A DNA stretch of 64,000 bases from Acanthochlamys bracteata (Eukaryota; Streptophyta; Magnoliopsida; Pandanales; Velloziaceae). This document shows positions 1 through 36,781 of this stretch, piece by piece. The stretch lies in the NCBI GenBank assembly GCA_019914995.1, contig CM034144.1, positions 5,611,489 through 5,675,488 of the forward strand, written 5' to 3'. A program made the translations under genes and the position numbers. The notes below the pieces were generated by a model, which saw only the letters and a program-made list of their open reading frames with translations, made no database searches and was not told the origin of the DNA. How positions within the stretch are numbered: the first letter of the stretch is position 1; each line of letters opens with the position of its first letter.

Positions 1-2320
1 CTGTGCTTGAATCTACACACTTAAATATTTTTTGTTCGTGTGACACAGAATTTCTAACAAAATAAATATATGATCTCATGCTCTGATACTCGTAAGTATA
101 TTTTCTATTTTTCGGATTTAAATTGATTAGACATTTAATTGCAAGCCTCTTCGAAATTTAGAAGGAAGTCATCTATACTTCTCTCCATTCATTTGGCATT
201 TCAAGATATAAATAATACGGCGATGCGCAATTTTAACTTTTATATCTCTCATCGCCCAACAATACTAATTTACTCATTCCAAAGAACTACAAAATAGAGG
301 ATGTGATCTATACAGTTCTCTATGAACGAATTTCTTTAAACGATCGACGAAATTTATGACATCAAAATATACTTGTTAATTATCTTTACATATTTTTTCT
401 AAAAATACAACTATTCTTTTTATTACTAACGCGATGTCGAAAAAATTATCAACATTTACCATCTTTATATAATCATCCAAAATATAACATACTTTTACCC
501 TTTTATACTTGAAAACTAAATATTGTATGAGATTGATGTACCTATACGGACATCCTACTATCTATCTCAAGCGCTCCTTTCAGATTGTCAACTATAAGAT
601 CTTTGAGTAGTTCTAAAATTACTATAATATTATTGTTCCGGTTATATTTTCAAAACATATGAAAGTTATTAGCTAAAAAATAGAAACTCAGAATACCATC
701 ATTCTCGAAAAAAAAAAATGTTCACAAAAGTACGAAACGGTTTCATTATGTTCGGAAGCAATATGACACACAAATATTTTTCTACTGTGTTTGGATCTGC
801 TCCATTAAATATATTTTCTACGTGTGACACAGAATTTCTAACAAAATAAATATATGACCTTACACTATGATACTCGTAAACATTTATTCTATTTTAGAGA
901 TTAAATTTATATAGTCATTCAATTGCCAGCCTTTTCAAAATTTAGCAAAAGTTTTTTATACTTTCCTCCACTTATTTTGCATTTTAGGATATATATAATC
1001 GGCGACATAATTTTATGTTTTAGCTTTCTCCTCGCCCAACAATACCAATTTATTCTTTCCAAAAAACTCTTGAATAGAGGATGAAATATGTACAATTCTG
1101 CACGATTAGATTTTTTTTAGACGATTGATGAAATGTATATCATTAAGATGTACTTTCTAATTATCGTTACATTTTTTTTCCAAAAACACAGCTATCTCTT
1201 TATTACTAATGCGGATTCGAAAAAAATGTCGATTTTCTCTATCTTTATATGATAATTCAAAATATAACATATTTCACCGTTTCATAGTTGAAACTAAATA
1301 TTGTTTAAAATTGATGTACCTATACGGACATCTTCTACCATCCGTTTCAAGTGCTCCTTTTATCATATCAACTATAAGATCTCTTAATAATTCCAATATT
1401 TCTATAACCTCATTGTTCCGATTATATTCCCAAAACATATGAAAGTTATTGGCCAAAAATCGAAAAGCGAAATACCGCCATTTTCGAAAAGATGAATGTT
1501 CGAAAAAGTAGAAAACGGTCTAATTATGTTCGGATGCAATAGGACACGTAAGCATTCTTCTACTATTTTTGGATCTACTCTTTTAAATATGTTTTCTACG
1601 TTTGACATAAAATTTCTAACAAGATAAATATATGACATCACACTCTGATACTCGTACATATTTCTTCTATTTTCGTTATTAACTTCATATAGATAGTCTC
1701 TTCAAACTTTAGAAATAAGTACTATATACTTCTCTCCATTCATTTGTCGTCTCAAGATATAAATAATACGACGACGTGCAATTTTATCTTTTAGATTTCT
1801 TTTTGTCCAATAATATTAATTAACTATTTCCGAAGAACTTAACAACAGAGAATATGATCTTTGCAATTTTTTATTATTGGATTTATTTAAACAATTTTGA
1901 AATATATGACATCAAAATTTACTCTTTAATTATCTTTACATTCTTTTTCTAAAAACGCAACTATCTTTTTTATTACTGACGCGATTTCGAAAAAATTGTC
2001 AATTTTTGTCAATTTTACATGATCATCCAAAATATAATATACTTTTACACTTTTATAATTGAAAAGTAAATATTATCTATAATTGATGTACCTATGCAGA
2101 CATTCTCTACCATCTATTTCAAGCGCTCCTTCTATTATGTCAACTATAATTCTCTAAATAGTTTCGAAATTTTTATAACCTCATTATCCCAGTTGTATTT
2201 TCGAAACATATAAAGTTAATGCCAAAAAATCAAAAAGCAAAATACCGCCATTTCAAAAAAAAAATTATTCAAAAAAGTACAAAACGATCTCACTATATTC
2301 GAATGGAAAGAATTTAGGAC
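1..2320 (-). repeat. Tandem array of about 780-bp units carrying a decayed coding frame
   Basis: Three consecutive units are recognisable (about 1-780, 781-1560, 1561-2320). The motif TGACACAGAATTTCTAAC or a close variant recurs at 41, 825 and 1603, a spacing of 784 and 778 bp. The first unit may be cut by the window edge. On the minus strand each unit contains the same reading frame: a block starting YEYQS, then motifs like VEEYL, LLPNI and RPF, and after about 160 codons a block with ILDD, DNFF and a shared end KDN-stop. Copies have diverged and are broken. The shared frame shows the unit once encoded protein. I do not recognise the family; it could come from a host gene or from a mobile or viral element. 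An inverted copy lies at 5885-6478. Confidence 0.75.
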
Positions 2321-2344
2321 ATCACATATTTAATGAAAATAACT

Positions 2345-2990
2345 TTTTGGAATTGTTATACTAGTAAAGCACTCGTGCTTGTACTTGACAACGTTGTCTT
2401 TATTGGGTAATTGTTGGAAACATTCAGGCTGGCTTCATAAAACTTGAAAAGTCTGATTCTTTTCCTCATCTAAAGGCACAAAACAAATATGGCCAGGTCC
2501 AACTATAATTGGTTCGACTTCTTCATCATAGCCCATGTTTTCTGTTTGCTGACACCCGTTGTTGTGTTCCTCAAGTTTATGCCCATTGTCATTATCTATC
2601 TTGTCATACAAGATTTTTTGTGTGTCTTTTTCTAGCTTGATACTCTATAGTAATTTCATGCATTTAACCTCACGTAGCCACCTTTTTTGGCCTTCGTGCG
2701 ACGAGCTTTTTTTCTTGGAAGCTCTTTAGAGCCACTATTAGGACGAGTACTTCCATCTCTTCAAAAAATGTCTTGAATTAGACCATGCCAATCTATGTTG
2801 TCATCTGCATGAGGTATTTGCTTGCCACCAATTTTTGTATAGTTGGTATCTAATTCAATAACTCCAGCCAGAGGTGTTCTCTCAACGAGTAACTTTTCTT
2901 TAGAAGCTTCACACGTGTGAGGGGAGATTTTACTTTTCTTTTTTACTTTCTCATCTTTGCCGGCTTCGGCTTCCTTTTCCAATAAAACAT
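2345..2990 (-). pseudogene. Coilin-like gene fragment (decayed)
   Basis: Three minus-strand segments in order read like the middle of plant coilin, the Cajal-body scaffold protein. They are a Lys-rich piece starting MEKEAEAGKDEKVKKK (from 2982), a basic piece containing LPRKKARRTKAKK (about 2680-2740), and an acidic piece with DEEVEPIIVGPGHICFVPL (about 2455-2540). Plant coilins carry a basic ARRKKAKR-type stretch followed by an acidic linker and a VxPGHIRFxPL motif in this order, so the match rests on order as well as motifs. The segments are in different frames with stops between them. Both the N-terminal ubiquitin-like domain and the C-terminal Tudor-like domain are missing. It is therefore a fragment, lying between the tandem array and the oleosin gene. 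Identity is from memory of the family, not from a search. Confidence 0.45.
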
Positions 2991-3523
2991 GACGATTCCA
3001 TGAATTTTAACATGGCGCCGGATCTATTCAGTTTTATTGAATGAATAGAAAGCAGCGATTTTGGAACGAACATGTTCTGTTTAAAATTTGAAATGATGAA
3101 ACTAAAAATTAGTGATGAATAAAACTCGTAGAAAAAAATCATAGTTTTATATTTTTTAATAAATAAAAATGACTTAAATATTAAATTTAATAAATTGGTT
3201 AAAGAATAGTTTATCATAGCAATGAATTATTGTCCAAGATTGTATTCACTTCAATTATTTTCACCAGCATATTCCCTTAATCACTTTATAATTACTTTAC
3301 TTAAAAAGCTAAATTTTCTTTTTGACAATTTCATCTTTTAATAATAACTCTTACAAGAAATAAACCTTACCTTCTTTTGTCGTCACATGCTTTATTATCT
3401 CGAATCCACTACCACCTGTCCCACTACACGTTGCTTCACTTTCTTCAAAACCTTACCACCACCGCTTTAAGTTTTTCTTCATTTCCATTCTCTAGACTTT
3501 TCTTTCTACACATTCCCGCAGTA

Positions 3524-3964
3524 ATGGTTGATCAGAAGATGAGCATCACCGACACCGGCTCCAGCGGACGAGCAATTCTCTTCACGGTAATCGCCGGAGT
3601 TATAGTTTGCGGGCCGTTACTGCTCACTATGGGATTAGTACTCCTTGCAACAACTACGCTTCTCTTGATAGCAACACCTCCGCTTCTCTTGTTCAGTCCT
3701 GTTATTATTCCCGCGGTGTTGGCTATAGCTACAGCGCTTGCTGGGTTCGGTGGTGCCGCTGTTATGGCGATTTCTGGACTCTGGGCGCTAAGATGTGCTT
3801 GTAGCATGGTAGTGGTTGAAGGGCGACCGGTTTTTCATCATGCGGTTGAATCGGCAACGGAGACTGGGCAGGTTGTGAAGAACAGGGCTTTGGATATCGG
3901 TAATCATGAAGGGCAGGTTCCGTATGAAGTAGAAGTGCGCCATGCAAATGATGATGAGGAGTGA
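3524..3964 (+). CDS. OLE: Oleosin (oil-body structural protein), 146 aa
   Basis: The protein coats and stabilises seed or pollen oil bodies, inserting a hydrophobic hairpin into the lipid core. A short polar N-terminus (residues 1-16) precedes a hydrophobic stretch of about 70 residues (17-86). In its middle lies the oleosin signature, the proline knot P-x5-S-P-x3-P, exact at residues 52-63 (PPLLLFSPVIIP). Gly/Ala-rich zipper-like sequence follows, then a polar C-terminal tail of about 55 residues ending in acidic NDDEE. The length fits low-molecular-weight oleosins. The gene is intronless, as most oleosins are. I chose the ATG at 3524; the open frame runs on upstream only through non-ATG codons in a CT-rich stretch that looks like 5' leader. 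The tail is less typical of the family than the hairpin, so a tapetal or minor oleosin class is possible. Confidence 0.9.
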   Translation: MVDQKMSITDTGSSGRAILFTVIAGVIVCGPLLLTMGLVLLATTTLLLIATPPLLLFSPVIIPAVLAIATALAGFGGAAVMAISGLWALRCACSMVVVEGRPVFHHAVESATETGQVVKNRALDIGNHEGQVPYEVEVRHANDDEE

Positions 3965-5050: not shown

Positions 5051-5884
5051 TTAATTCGTAGATATTCTCCTATGTGTATATACTGATCGGTAAGTCAGGT
5101 ATATATTGTATTTATTATTAGTTTTTATAACTCGGTAAAATGAAAGTCATTTCTTCGAATTATGTGAGAAATTAAGCGGCATGTTTTAAATGTACGAATA
5201 TTTTTATTTTAAATATTATATTTGAAATTTATATATTTTTAATTAATATTTTAATTGTATTTATTTTTATATTAAATTTATTTTATAAATTTTAATTATT
5301 ATTTAAAATTATTTTTAACTAAAATTTAATTATGAAACTTATTTTCGTAAAATTTATCTTCGTTTGAAATATATCCTAAACGAGAGGCAAGATCAGAAGC
5401 TATTTACTTTTATTTCATTTTCATTATTCTTTGAAGTTTTGGTTTTTAATGTCAACATTTTCTAAAGTTAACATGCATAACACCGTTGATTCGTGTTGTC
5501 ATAATAATCAGGAAACAGTGGAATCATTATCAAATCTAAAACATATACAATGAAAACGTTTTATCATTTAAGAAAATAATATTAACAGTCAACTCTATTC
5601 ATTTAACAATAATGAGCAAAATTAAAATTAATACTGAAATCAAAGGAGGATGTCAGAAACTCAATCCTCTCAAGATCAACGGTCCGAATTTAGCGTGTGG
5701 TTTGACTAACAGAAGTGAATTTTGTGAAATTTATTCCAGTAAAAATTAATTAAATTTTTATAAAAGATGAATCTGTTAATATTTAAAGTTAAAATTAGAT
5801 GTATAATAATTTATTTAGTTAAAATTTATAACTGAGTATTTAGAAAATATTTTATAGGTAAATCAATCTAATACAATATTTAGT

Positions 5885-6478
5885 TTTAAAGTATGAAAGG
5901 GTAAAAGTATGTTATATTTTGGATGACTATATAAAGATTAAAAAAACTGACAATTTTTTCGACATTGCGTCAGAAATAAAACGAATACTTGTGTTTTTGA
6001 AAAAAATATGTAAAGATAATTAAAGCGTACATTTTGATGTCATACATTTCGTCGATCGTTTAAAGAAATCCGATCATAAAGAATTGTATAAATCACATCC
6101 TCTATTTTGGAGTTCTCGGAAGGAGTTAATTAGTATTGTTGGGCGAAGAAAATTTTAAAAGATAAAATTACGCGTCGTCATGTTATTTATATCCTAAAAC
6201 GCCAAATGAATGGAGAGAAATATAGATGACTTTCTGCTAATTTCGAGGAGGCACGCAATTGAATGCGTATATGATTTTAATTCCGAAAAATAAAAAAAAT
6301 GCTTATGAGTATCAGAGCATGAGATCATATATTGATTTTGTTAGAAATTCTGTTTCACACGCAGAAAATATGTATACGTGAGCAGATCCAAGCACAGTGG
6401 AAGAATATTTGCGTGCCCTATTGCTTCTGGACATAATTAGACCGTTTCGTGCTTTTTCGAACATTTATTTTTGCTTCT
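5885..6478 (+). repeat. Inverted fourth copy of the decayed coding repeat
   Basis: This stretch matches the reverse complement of the array at 1-2320, for example TAAAAGTATGTTATATTTTG at its left end against the tract near 480-505. On the plus strand it carries the same protein blocks in the same order around the unit: first the ILDD, DNFF and KDN-stop end, then the intervening spacer, then the YEYQS start block and an IIRPF motif. The orientation is opposite to the array and it lies about 3.6 kb away, across the oleosin gene. It is a decayed copy of unknown family. Confidence 0.7.
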
Positions 6479-25937: not shown

Positions 25938-28610
25938 TCAATATTGGTTGTCATAGAATCGAACAATTGGAATGTGCTGGACTTTGAGGTGATCAGGGCC
26001 TGTGTTCTTTTGAAGTTTCTGGAAAAATACTTCAGGCATATCAAGCAGGTGCAGCTCCCTGAGTCTAGCTTCCTCAATGCCTAGGGGCACTGCTTCCAAC
26101 TGAGTACAACCCCTGATGTACATCTTGCGGAGGTTAAGCATTGGTCCTTCAAAGATGACATAGTTTAGATTCTCTAGTTCTTCAAGATCTAATACCCTCA
26201 ACTTCTGAAACCTATCTTTCTTGCAGCATAATCTGACTCCATCATAAGCACGGATCAGTGTCAGCTCAACCAGATTTGGCAAACTTTCCAGAATTGCAAT
26301 GGAACCTTCTTTCAATTTCGACCACCTTAAGCGCATCCTGGCTAGGTTGTTGAGACAGCCAATCCATTCAGGGAGAGTATTCAATGGTCCTCTCAAGTAT
26401 AAACGTTGAATGCATGGTGGCGGATCTGACAATGATTCTAAATTCAGAATTTCCTCCTTACTAATTGCTGAAACAGAAAGAGATTCAAGGTCTCTCATCT
26501 TCTGGACAGCAGCACAAAGATCTTTGTCATCAATACTTCTCATCTGCACAATCCCAAGCCGTTTTAGTTGAGTGAGATTCCCCAGCTCTCGAATTATTCC
26601 TGTATCATGATCAGCCTTTGCATAGGAAAGCTTCTGAAGTTCTTTCAAGCGCCCAATTCCACAAGGCACATTCACACCGTTTATGTCATAGAAGGTCGGG
26701 TGGCGGCCAGCTGTGTAGTAATATGCGAGGAGATGGCGAAGGTTTTGGAGCTTCAGGATACTTTTGGGCAGTTCTGAAACGTTGGTGCTCTTAAGGTCCA
26801 GCGTCTCTAGATTTTTGAGCTGCCCTAAGGTCTTGGGGAGCTTGTTGATCCTTGTCCCTCTAAGGCTTAGATACCTTAAATTATTAAGCTTCCCAAATTC
26901 TACTGGGAACTGTTCTATTGGTGCACCTTCGAGATCAAGGACCTTCAACCGTCTAAAGCCAGAGAAAATGGTGCGCAAGCAATTGGTTGATAAAGTGTTT
27001 AATCCAAACATGAAGAAAGCACGGAGATGGCACAAGCTTACATCTTTTAATTCTGTTGTATTATGGACACCAAAGCGTCTGAGTTTGCCCTGCTTTTCTG
27101 CACCTCTTCTTGCGAGTGGCGTGCTCATGAAATTCTCTTCATTCGACTTCAGCACAATGATCTCATGAATAAGATCATGGACTCTGCAGCTTCGAACTCT
27201 TCCATAATCATAATGCTCTGCCACCTGAATCATGCTCCTATCAATGAGCTGTCTGAGATAATCTCCAGCAATCATTTCCATTGTTTTCCCCTGCTCAGCT
27301 TCTATAAATCCTTCCGCCATCCATAATCGAATCAGAGTAATGCGCTTGACTGGATGATCTTTGGGGAAAAGGCTAAAATACAAGATACCTGACTTGAGGG
27401 GATGAGGCAGGTCATTGTAACTCATTGACAGTATTCTCTTGATGGGCTCAAGTTTGGGATTGTTGGCTAACTCTGACCGGAGATTGTTATGCAAGGTTTT
27501 CCATTCTAGAAGCCTGACATTCCTAGACAGGAGGCCTCCTATGGTGACAATTGCCAGTGGCAGGCCATCACATATGCCAACTATGTCACGTGCTGTATCT
27601 TCTAGCTCTGGGGGACAAATTTGGTCTGTGATAGTTCGAAAGGCCTTCTTACAGAAGAGGGACCAGGCTTTGGTGGGCGGTAAAGGGTGCAGTTGGTAGA
27701 CATAAGCAGATGATTCTAAGCATGAATCACTCACATCATTATTTGTAGTTGTGACAAGAATTCGACTACCATGGTTGTTATCAGGTAATGCATACTTTAA
27801 ATACATCCATGCCTCTACACACACATCATCAAGAACAACTACGAACCTTTTATCTTGAAGAAAGCGGCTGATTATCTCTATCAGCTGAATGATTTCCATC
27901 ATATCAATTCTTTCAGGCAGGGGTTCGACCAATTCATCAAAAAATTGGATTATGATGACCCTCAGTATGTCAGCAATAGCAAATGATTGAGTCAAAGTGA
28001 TCCACGCGTGGCATTTGAACCAGGCCCTGACGGTTTCATTTCTGTAGACTTTCCGAACTAGAGTGGTCTTGCCCAATCCACCCATGCCGACCACTGAAAT
28101 CATCTTCAGCTGTAGATCTTCCATTGTTAACCACATAATTAAGTCTTCTCTAGGTTCTTCTATTCCAACTAGCTCGGCTTCATTAACGAAAACAGCCTCC
28201 ACATGACCATGCAGCTGATCTCTTACACTTTCTGAGGTTGGAACGTCACCAACTGAAGTCAAATTGTACATATTTCTCCTTTGTGAGATGTCGTAGAGCT
28301 GGGCTTTGATCTCGTCGATCTCGTTAATCTCCTCGATCTCCTCGATCGAAGTTCTAATATGGAGGTTGAACTCGTCAAGAACGTCCTCAATATCATTTGC
28401 TAATTCTCTCACCTGCCTTATCCATGTCTTCATGCCAGCTTTCTGATCTTCATCGGCTTCTGCTTCTGTCATGGATGATTTTATGCTCTCCAACTTATCT
28501 TTGATGTTTGCTTCTGCTTCTGCTTCTGTCATGGATGATTTTATGCTCTCCAACTCATCTTTGATGTTTCTAACTCCTGTCTCCACCCTAGCCAGAAGCT
28601 GCTCCTCCAT
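25938..28610 (-). CDS. CC-NB-ARC-LRR (CNL) disease-resistance protein, RPM1-like, 890 aa
   Basis: An intracellular immune receptor: it senses pathogen effectors or guarded host proteins and triggers defence. One exon. An Rx-type coiled coil (1-140) carries an EDVID-like DIEDVLDEF (73-81). The NB-ARC has P-loop GMGGLGKTT (175-183), Walker B FVVVLDDV (256-263), GSRILVTTT (281-289), GLPLA (349-353), RNBS-D-like YFSLFP (about 411-416) and VHD in place of MHD (477-479), a common tolerated variant. About 350 residues of leucine-rich repeats follow (LDLEGAPIEQFP onward). All nucleotide-binding motifs are intact, so it looks functional. Two oddities: a 20-residue tandem duplication (15-34 and 35-54), and a short start lacking about 20 residues usual before helix 1 of RPM1-like proteins. 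No MADA-type N-terminal motif is visible. It stands alone, not in a visible cluster. Confidence 0.93.
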   Translation of the reverse strand: MEEQLLARVETGVRNIKDELESIKSSMTEAEAEANIKDKLESIKSSMTEAEADEDQKAGMKTWIRQVRELANDIEDVLDEFNLHIRTSIEEIEEINEIDEIKAQLYDISQRRNMYNLTSVGDVPTSESVRDQLHGHVEAVFVNEAELVGIEEPREDLIMWLTMEDLQLKMISVVGMGGLGKTTLVRKVYRNETVRAWFKCHAWITLTQSFAIADILRVIIIQFFDELVEPLPERIDMMEIIQLIEIISRFLQDKRFVVVLDDVCVEAWMYLKYALPDNNHGSRILVTTTNNDVSDSCLESSAYVYQLHPLPPTKAWSLFCKKAFRTITDQICPPELEDTARDIVGICDGLPLAIVTIGGLLSRNVRLLEWKTLHNNLRSELANNPKLEPIKRILSMSYNDLPHPLKSGILYFSLFPKDHPVKRITLIRLWMAEGFIEAEQGKTMEMIAGDYLRQLIDRSMIQVAEHYDYGRVRSCRVHDLIHEIIVLKSNEENFMSTPLARRGAEKQGKLRRFGVHNTTELKDVSLCHLRAFFMFGLNTLSTNCLRTIFSGFRRLKVLDLEGAPIEQFPVEFGKLNNLRYLSLRGTRINKLPKTLGQLKNLETLDLKSTNVSELPKSILKLQNLRHLLAYYYTAGRHPTFYDINGVNVPCGIGRLKELQKLSYAKADHDTGIIRELGNLTQLKRLGIVQMRSIDDKDLCAAVQKMRDLESLSVSAISKEEILNLESLSDPPPCIQRLYLRGPLNTLPEWIGCLNNLARMRLRWSKLKEGSIAILESLPNLVELTLIRAYDGVRLCCKKDRFQKLRVLDLEELENLNYVIFEGPMLNLRKMYIRGCTQLEAVPLGIEEARLRELHLLDMPEVFFQKLQKNTGPDHLKVQHIPIVRFYDNQY
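28440..28570 (-). repeat. 60-bp tandem duplication inside the CNL coiled coil
   Basis: Two adjacent 60-bp units encode NIKDELESIKSSMTEAEAEA and NIKDKLESIKSSMTEAEADE. They differ at only a few bases. The duplication keeps the frame and lengthens the first coiled-coil helix. Confidence 0.9.
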
Positions 28611-28619
28611 CTCTGATCG

Positions 28620-29370
28620 TTCTCACAAGTTTTGTGTAAAGAACTTTTAAAGTCTATCTTGGAATGAGAATCTTGCTATTTTTTTGTTTACCTCTCAAGT
28701 GAAGGTCATGTATGATTCTAATGGCCTGCCATACTATCTGCTACCTACCATAGTTTGTATTGATCCTGTAGATTGAGAGTTACCAAGTATGATGAGATAT
28801 ATTCTTTCTCAGATCCTTTGGTAATACATCTATTTAACAGTTTTATCCGAATTAGTCTTGCTGATTTATTCTTGTATATAATTCTCTAGGATTTCAGATT
28901 GGCTCACTTCTAATATCTCCATTTTTTAAAAATGCAAAACTGTGAATTAGTTATTTTAAATATCTCCGTCTAAGATTACAAGTTCTTCCATCAGAGGCTT
29001 AGAGCTATGACCTGTGTTCGCGATTCATATTCTACACTTAAATAGTAAGAGTATGTGATGCAGATATGATTGCTTTTGTTCAATCAATAGCAAGGTTTTC
29101 CATATCTTATTATATATAGACTAAAGACCAGAAGCCATTATTAATTGCTTAGAACTTGACTTATTTCCTCAAGTAAATTCCGAAGAATGCATTTCTTCTG
29201 CAAGTTGCATAAGTGAAAGTCCTTTCATAAAGACTTCTCAAGATTTTGATCCTTTGCATGATAATCTTTTATATTGATAGGTACATCTAACAACTGTATT
29301 TATCTGATATCTATACTAAAATAGGATTTCAACACCGTCTGGCATTGTATTTAAAGAGTTTTTGTTTCCA
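28620..29370. other. Upstream region of the CNL gene
   Basis: No gene was seen. It would hold the CNL promoter (minus strand). No single clear TATA box can be tied to the start. Confidence 0.4.
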
Positions 29371-35701: not shown

Positions 35702-36259
35702 CATAAAAAAAAAGAAAGAAAATTATTAACTTGGAAACAGTAAGGGTTCTTTCCTTTTTCCCACTTCAAACTCGATCACAACACCCTCCTTTCTCCATCC
35801 AAATCAAAAGCCCCAAACATTAACCCTAGAAACAGTTTAAATCCTCCTCAAACCAGGTGGAGAAAAAAGACGATTTCTTTTTTTTGTTCTAATAGCTTTT
35901 GTGTTCGTCTTCTATTTTGTCTCTTCAATTGATTGTGATTCTTGAGTTTTTTATTCTTATATTCAACAACGGGTTTCCCAGCTCTCATAGTTTCAAAGCA
36001 AGAAAAGCAGGTTTTCGACTTTGCTTTGTTTCACTTGATCATTTGCTTTCTGATTCAAGCGAACCGATTTTGACTTGTTTGTGCTTCGAAAGAATCGAGT
36101 TTGACTTGCGGGTTTTCGGGAAGAATCGATTTTTTGTTCTGGGCACTTCAGAAGAATCGATTTCGACTTGAGGTTAGTTAACAAGAATCAATTTTGATAT
36201 AGGGATAGTTAACCAAAGTCGATTTTGAATATTGGGTTTGTTCGGATTTCAGGGAACGT

Positions 36260-36781
36260 ATGGATCAACCAGGACATGGCACTCCTCCGGTGATGGGTGT
36301 TGCTGCACCACCGCAGTACGCCGCCGCTGCGGCCGCTGGTGTTCCTTACCAAGCTTACCAGCACATGTATCAACAGCAACAGCAACAGCAACAGCAGCTT
36401 CAAATGTTTTGGGCAGACCAGTACCGGGAGATTGAACAAACCACAGACTTCAAAAACCATAGTTTGCCGCTTGCCCGGATCAAGAAGATCATGAAAGCTG
36501 ATGAGGATGTCCGTATGATTGCTGCTGAGGCTCCTGTGGTATTTGCTAGGGCATGCGAGATGTTTATCTTGGAACTGACACAAAGGTCCTGGGCTCATGC
36601 TGAGGAGAATAGGCGCAGGACATTGCAGAAGAATGACATTGCTGCTGCTATCACCCGCACAGACGTGTTTGACTTCCTTGTTGACATCGTGCCCAGAGAA
36701 GAGGGCAAGGAAGATGTCCTTCCCTGCGCAGCGATCCCTGGTCCTGCTGATGCCTTGCCCTACTACTATGCCCCTCAGTAA
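36260..36781 (+). CDS. NF-YC: Nuclear factor Y subunit C (HAP5-type histone fold), 173 aa
   Basis: NF-YC pairs with NF-YB through a histone fold; the dimer binds CCAAT boxes with NF-YA or joins CONSTANS-type proteins in flowering, light and ABA control. An Ala-rich N-terminus and a nine-Gln run (38-46) precede [20 protein letters not shown]. The conserved histone fold (about 68-143) contains [35 protein letters not shown] and [20 protein letters not shown]. The sequence matches the NF-YC1/4/9-type group. The C-terminus is short (ends PYYYAPQ), so the protein is smaller than the usual 200-250 residues. There is one coding exon. The ATG follows a strong acceptor (GGATTTCAG at 36244-36252), so the leader has an intron, as in Arabidopsis relatives. 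It is convergent with the KH gene downstream. Confidence 0.95.

Follow-up and report, generated by a model that had tools for sequence, protein, structure and literature searches.

Layout of the array

The window analysed here is a 64,000-nucleotide stretch of Acanthochlamys bracteata DNA, corresponding to C19:5611489-5675488 of the 195.5-Mb genome. Positions 1-2433 of the window are the head of a tandem array, and a genome search showed that the same units run upstream to C19:5605801. The complete array consists of ten complete units (U1-U10), one unit present in two halves and a stub of approximately 75 bases, and it spans C19:5605801-5613921 plus a displaced end. The original prediction had confined the feature to positions 1-2320, which proved too narrow on both sides, as the array continues upstream of base 1 and the first unit, together with the retrocopy to which it belongs, extends to 3138. 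The parts that lie in the window are as follows, with L013 denoting the intron-containing gene on C14 to which they were aligned.

1-784, minus strand: unit U8, type A, a dead, intron-free copy of IRE1-like exons; the array goes on upstream as U7-U1.
785-1562, minus strand: unit U9, type B.
1563-2433, minus strand: founder unit U10, matching L013 in blocks 2433-2145, 2142-2014, 2006-1877 and 1860-1583.
1583-1860, minus strand: copy of the KEN (RNase) exon inside U10.
2436-2980, minus strand: coilin-derived exons of U10's retrocopy, intron-free and directly joined to U10, in blocks 2980-2862, 2789-2722, 2723-2645, 2616-2580, 2589-2470 and 2471-2436.
2983-3138, minus strand: 5' exon of the retrocopy, probably untranslated, ending at the 5' limit of similarity to L013.
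5853-6399, plus strand: the rest of a split type-A unit (unit positions ~239-784), the first 240 bases of which are at C19:5605801-5606040.
6400-6472, plus strand: stub made of the opening ~75 bases of a type-B unit, at the array end; its best match is U5 (94.7%).

The three direct units in the window (1-784, 785-1562 and 1563-~2330) are spaced by 784 and 778 bases, in agreement with the period of about 780 bp described originally, and are 76-78% identical to one another. Along the array, two types of unit alternate to form a dimeric repeat. Type A comprises U2, U4, U6, U8 and the inverted copy (83.5-92.5% identity within the type) and type B comprises U1, U3, U5, U7 and U9 (82.5-91.5%), with 76.1-80.1% identity between A and B. 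U10 is 74.5-77.8% identical to every other unit, and the units are 75-79% identical to L013.

An inverted fourth copy had also been predicted within the first 2,320 bases. Such a copy exists; it lies outside that interval, at 5853-6472, and appears to be the array end after an inversion. The 240 bases left over at C19:5605801-5606040 match A units best and stop where the inverted copy starts, at unit position ~239/240, and the stub that follows the inverted copy is nearest to B units, as the A/B alternation predicts. Because the two halves of the A unit are complementary at ~239/240 and the stub is of type B, we infer an inversion of C19:5605801-5617340 from this genome.

The window contains other features. 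An oleosin-like open frame (PF01277, E 1.3e-12) at 3527-3964 on the plus strand lies inside the inferred 11.5-kb inversion. On the minus strand, 25941-28622 holds an open 894-codon disease-resistance gene of the Rx_N/NB-ARC/LRR kind, whose 5' part carries a nearly perfect 60-bp tandem duplication (28456-28569, 98% match). An NF-Y-type histone-fold transcription factor at 36209-36781 on the plus strand contains a short CAACAG repeat at 36371-36396.

Source genes and the intron-free copy

The units match the spliced exons of two genes on C14, L013 (C14:117 kb) and L014 (C14:156 kb), which upholds the original view that the array is not a plain satellite. These genes have GT-AG introns at four identical places. 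We compared intron sites across eleven loci, some of them overlapping, and the first 7,000 window bases, with two C8 matches left out; among the loci compared, introns were seen in only L013 and L014. L014 encodes a complete 348-codon protein with an ATG start. The IRE1-like part of L013 is 340 codons long, and approximately 118 coilin-derived codons lead into it in frame and free of stops. Over 329 codons, the pN/pS between L013 and L014 was 0.466, compared with 0.786 ± 0.085 for neutral shuffles, none of which was as low (0 of 500). In 200 shuffled copies from this test, stops averaged 13.7 and never numbered fewer than 6. Judged from this comparison, L013 and L014 are open and under purifying selection, as genes that are selected or were until lately. 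The gene structure of the chimera at C14:115.5-118.4 kb is visible in the genome; that it was expressed is suggested by the retrocopy. Downstream of the chimeric gene, further copies of some coilin-derived 5' exons are present (L013 6380-7529).

On the minus strand, window positions 3138-1583 match L013 exon by exon with the introns absent. A single alignment of U10 (2433-1538) crosses all four IRE1-like junctions, so that all four IRE1-like introns are gone. In total, the first copy lacks ten introns relative to L013, eight of which are missing flush on both sides; at the two non-flush sites, the retrocopy retains exon sequence that is missing from L013. L013 is not the exact parent of the retrocopy, which retains about 28 nt and a portion of one coilin exon that are absent from L013. 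Since the units match the spliced exons of an open gene at another locus, the minus-strand frame that they share, as noticed originally, is real.

Of U1-U10, only U10 has the genuine 5' portion of the first IRE1-like exon. In the other nine units, U1-U9, terminal-exon sequence comes first and is fused to the 'PNIMRPF' part. The 3' end of the retrocopy has been lost, as the last units of the array are truncated. The absence of the parent's introns, the disabling mutations and the neutral pattern of change described below are those of processed pseudogenes. The C19 copy resembles such pseudogenes in its precisely absent introns, its disabling mutations and its new chromosomal site; it differs from them in that its parent is chimeric and its 3' half was amplified to eleven units and a stub in a dimeric repeat. 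Since coilin and IRE1-like exons are spliced together in the window retrocopy, a chimeric mRNA very probably existed.

Coilin-derived and IRE1-like exons

We traced the 5' exons to coilin, the Cajal-body scaffold (PF15862, PF23086). A gene on C18, spliced by eye, matches Tudor_Coilin (1.3e-34), and its exons preceding the Tudor part recur in L013 on C14 and, in spliced form, in the window. The exons of the Tudor part matched only C18, with no match at C14 or C19, where IRE1-like exons take their place. A search of the genome for Coilin_N (PF15862) gave one match, at C9, which scored 29.7 bits against a cut-off of 32.9, and none in the chimera. Thus the chimera shares exons with the C18 coilin gene but, unlike coilin, has neither the C-terminal Tudor domain nor the N-terminal domain. 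Among the literature matches listed, no title described a coilin-IRE1 chimera or an IRE1-like retro-array, which does not prove absence.

The remaining exons on C14 appear to encode a degenerate relative of the stress kinase/RNase IRE1, consisting of a kinase remnant and a KEN RNase; sequence profiles taken by themselves are weak. Two standard IRE1 genes, L051 and L052, are present in the genome, with kinase and KEN matches recorded for L051. In both standard IRE1 genes, the intron before the KEN exon is apparently of the GC-AG kind (L051 ~4401 and L052 ~4987). IRE1 introns lie at R/D, R/P...HPLFW and ELQ/E (the slash marking the intron) in phases 2, 2 and 0, and those of L014 lie at E/D, R/NLYRSHPLFW and MFQ/, also in phases 2, 2 and 0, with L013 in agreement. 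Three of the four introns of L013 and L014 (introns 1, 3 and 4) therefore equal those of L051 and L052 in place and phase; intron 2 occupies the equivalent region but differs in phase (0 in the family, 1 in IRE1). The KEN exon measures 301 bp in both L013 and L014 and 304 bp in IRE1 (PF06479), and it is this exon that the original prediction had taken for a conserved spacer of about 290 bp.

The residues Y, R, N and H of the KEN domain, which we take to be catalytic, stand at IRE1-like spacing in L014: Y precedes R-N by 13 residues and H comes five after R, a spacing shared with the IRE1 proteins of plants, human and yeast, in which R-N follows HPLFW by 76-79 residues, compared with 83 in L014. 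L013 departs from this pattern, with C and T at the Y and N places. In the alignment, Y is retained in all eleven array units, and eight of them have R, N and H as a set. Because most units keep these residues and L013 reads C and T at two of the places, the parent of the array was less worn at the KEN residues than L013 is now. PMC3710099 describes R, the next polar residue and H as important in KEN domains.

Profile comparisons gave a more qualified picture. Aligning the KEN parts with hhalign yielded P 5.2e-5, and none of 300 column shuffles reached the score; longer alignments gave P 8.7e-4 over the same region. Once the HPLFW block was removed, the KEN profile match fell to chance, as a score at least as high came from 100 of 200 shuffles in local mode and from 13 of 200 in global mode, although the best local alignment was still the expected Y...RN...H block. 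For the kinase-like part, profiles aligned only over HPLFW. When 1,832 ORFs, some from overlapping loci, were ranked with an IRE1 KEN model, exons of the IRE1 genes took ranks 1-4, followed by L013 and the inverted copy in the window at ranks 5-6 (E 0.18 and 0.19). Reciprocally, a model of the family placed an IRE1 KEN exon as the first non-family ORF (rank 31, E 0.096), with an unrelated ORF next (0.14); in these rankings the key E-values are not significant and unrelated ORFs lie close behind. No IRE1, KEN (PF06479) or kinase model in Pfam matched the family, at E up to 1 in one search and up to 10 in another, and no IRE1 chain in the PDB matched it, whether single pieces or a five-row alignment served as the query. 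By eye, HRD, DFG and part of the activation segment, by which an active kinase is known, are unrecognisable, and L014, at just 348 aa, is too short to include the lumenal sensor of IRE1. Because the KEN profile match depends on HPLFW, we base the relationship to IRE1 on intron place and phase, the residue pattern and the reciprocal ranking. The original prediction had recognised no family in the units, whose parts we now assign as IRE1-like (kinase remnant and KEN RNase) and coilin-derived.

Expansions of KEN-domain genes in particular lineages, separate from the standard IRE1 kinase, are described for rice and other monocots in PMC3710099. The family studied here differs from those expansions in that most copies are dead retrocopies and the parent has a kinase remnant and, in one case, coilin exons.

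Decay of the units

All eleven units carry stops in the frame, as well as indels, and a 9-bp deletion is common to all eleven. In 10 of 11 units, the founder U10 among them, the codon for Trp176 of the source has become a stop; U2 is the exception and reads CAA. This is the 'KDN-stop' that had been proposed as the shared end of the unit. It falls inside the protein, and coding homology extends beyond it. Because one nonsense mutation is common to 10 of 11 units, the coding unit was probably disabled before it was multiplied. The proposal that a coding unit was multiplied and then decayed together thus holds for the multiplication and the decay, but probably not for their order.

We next considered substitutions. 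Over all 55 unit pairs, dN/dS was 0.657 (ratio of means), compared with a neutral control of 0.646 ± 0.042 (100 shuffles of 12 sampled pairs each), and the two other frames gave 0.593 and 0.794. The eleven units compared with L013 had a mean dN/dS of 0.46, below all 100 shuffles (0.68 ± 0.04, minimum 0.60). An excess of synonymous change between copies had been suggested originally as the check on whether the frame is genuine. No such excess exists among the units, yet the frame is real, as demonstrated by the comparison with L013 and by the match to spliced exons. The array therefore looks as if it diverges like neutral DNA, with the constraint sitting on the gene lineage, and most likely has no function now.

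Dispersed copies

The genome-wide count of copies that had been proposed gave at least 30 DNA matches to unit U8, at least 41 matches in a protein search with the open stretch of a diverged copy, and at least 31 and at least 33 in searches with L013 exons. These counts are lower bounds, and the other copies found are dispersed or in short arrays. Copies on C1 (two loci), C4 (five units), C7 (several) and C2 (fragments), like those in the window, cross the intron sites with indels of at most 7 bases where aligned. There are two exceptions. L015 on C1 retains approximately 67 bases at intron 3, and L053 on C7 (527-2091; C7:1.995-1.996 Mb) is interrupted, about 10 bases away from intron site 1, by approximately 1.56 kb of sequence that looks to have been inserted later.

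Some of these loci have structures of their own. L010 3360-8811 (C4:2.931-2.937 Mb) is a second tandem array of the family, with five L014-type units at a spacing of about 1.23 kb; four of these run from the 5' exon into a first coding exon whose opening ~45 bases are missing, as if an alternative splice acceptor had been used. At L012 4405-3720 (C1:14.007 Mb), a retrocopy has its 5' exon joined directly to the second IRE1-like exon and seems to record an exon-skipped mRNA. A third cluster, L016 3073-6876 (C2:3.068-3.072 Mb), consists for the most part of the 5' exon and the beginning of the first coding exon, recurring every 290-530 bases.

Origin of the array

Taken together, these observations make it highly likely that a chimeric host mRNA was reverse transcribed into a processed copy, which was then amplified as the dead tandem array seen here. 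The tandem units, dimeric higher-order structure and neutral-like divergence of the array would also suit a plain non-coding satellite with a frame shared by chance, a reading that we consider scarcely credible given that the units match spliced exons of open, selected C14 genes and differ from L013 by fewer non-synonymous changes than neutral shuffles. Nor does the locus have the long, genome-abundant monomer arrays that define satellites: there is one array, of eleven units and a stub. The tandem step was surely made at the DNA level, and the whole array might in principle descend from tandem duplication of the gene followed by intron loss, with no reverse transcription. This is very improbable in view of the first copy, from which ten introns are absent, eight with both flanks flush, and of the dispersed relatives on C1, C4, C7 and C2, which are also intron-free where the alignments cover the sites.

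It is just as improbable that the units once encoded a working tandem-repeat protein that was later lost independently in the copies. The fused junction is in frame, and a 107-aa open stretch in L009 (8454-8774), the locus in which the upstream units were read, spans it; one in three junctions would be in frame by chance, the units show no selection among themselves and the Trp176 stop is common to 10 of 11 units, U10 included. We reject the satellite, DNA-level duplication with intron loss, and the live tandem protein on the exon match, the missing introns and the shared stop. A different kind of proposal, which we regard as very unlikely though marginally less so than the others, is that the array and its inverted piece may give rise to small RNAs directed against the chimeric parent or related KEN genes, silencing them. 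Copies on opposite strands lie 3.4 kb apart (window 2433 and 5853), a layout able to give hairpin RNA, and the units retain 75-79% identity to L013; that identity is low for guided silencing, and the units diverge like neutral DNA.

For the amplified processed copy, we propose the following history. A partial duplicate of the coilin gene would have been joined in frame, via splicing, to a degenerate IRE1-like gene in the present lineage. The spliced chimeric mRNA would then have been reverse transcribed, presumably by a LINE-type element, and inserted at C19, where the ten introns are absent. The nonsense mutation at Trp176, now shared by the units, would have preceded amplification. The 780-bp unit may have been created when the terminal exon recombined with the first IRE1-like exon, the two having, by eye, a few bases around TCCG in common; the resulting junction is present in the units, and the route to it is conjectural. 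Diverged neighbours A and B would subsequently have been co-amplified as a dimer of approximately 1,560 bp, as their alternation indicates. Finally, the inversion of approximately 11.5 kb, with one break within an A unit, would have moved the distal end to window 5853-6472.

Discussion

Retrocopies, tandem amplification and KEN expansions are known kinds of event, and the array, though its history is unusually easy to read, is dead DNA of an ordinary sort. It shows a route from a dead retrocopy to satellite-like DNA, in which the junction, the dimer stage and the inversion can be read within 12 kb. By preserving the splice joins of a chimeric coilin-IRE1-like mRNA, it also draws attention to a host gene family that escapes Pfam and PDB searches.

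The chimeric source gene is of greater interest than the array. We suggest, tentatively and as a possibility that we hold at slightly less than an even chance, that the C14 source is a plant gene of recent origin, under selection, whose transcripts link coilin exons by in-frame splicing to those of a degenerate IRE1-like pseudokinase-KEN protein. Its product would be a relative of the ER stress RNase that is nuclear or linked to Cajal bodies, and the dead array would be a DNA record of the chimeric mRNA in the germ line. If the family makes protein, this plant would have KEN-type RNases or pseudo-RNases outside the ER membrane.
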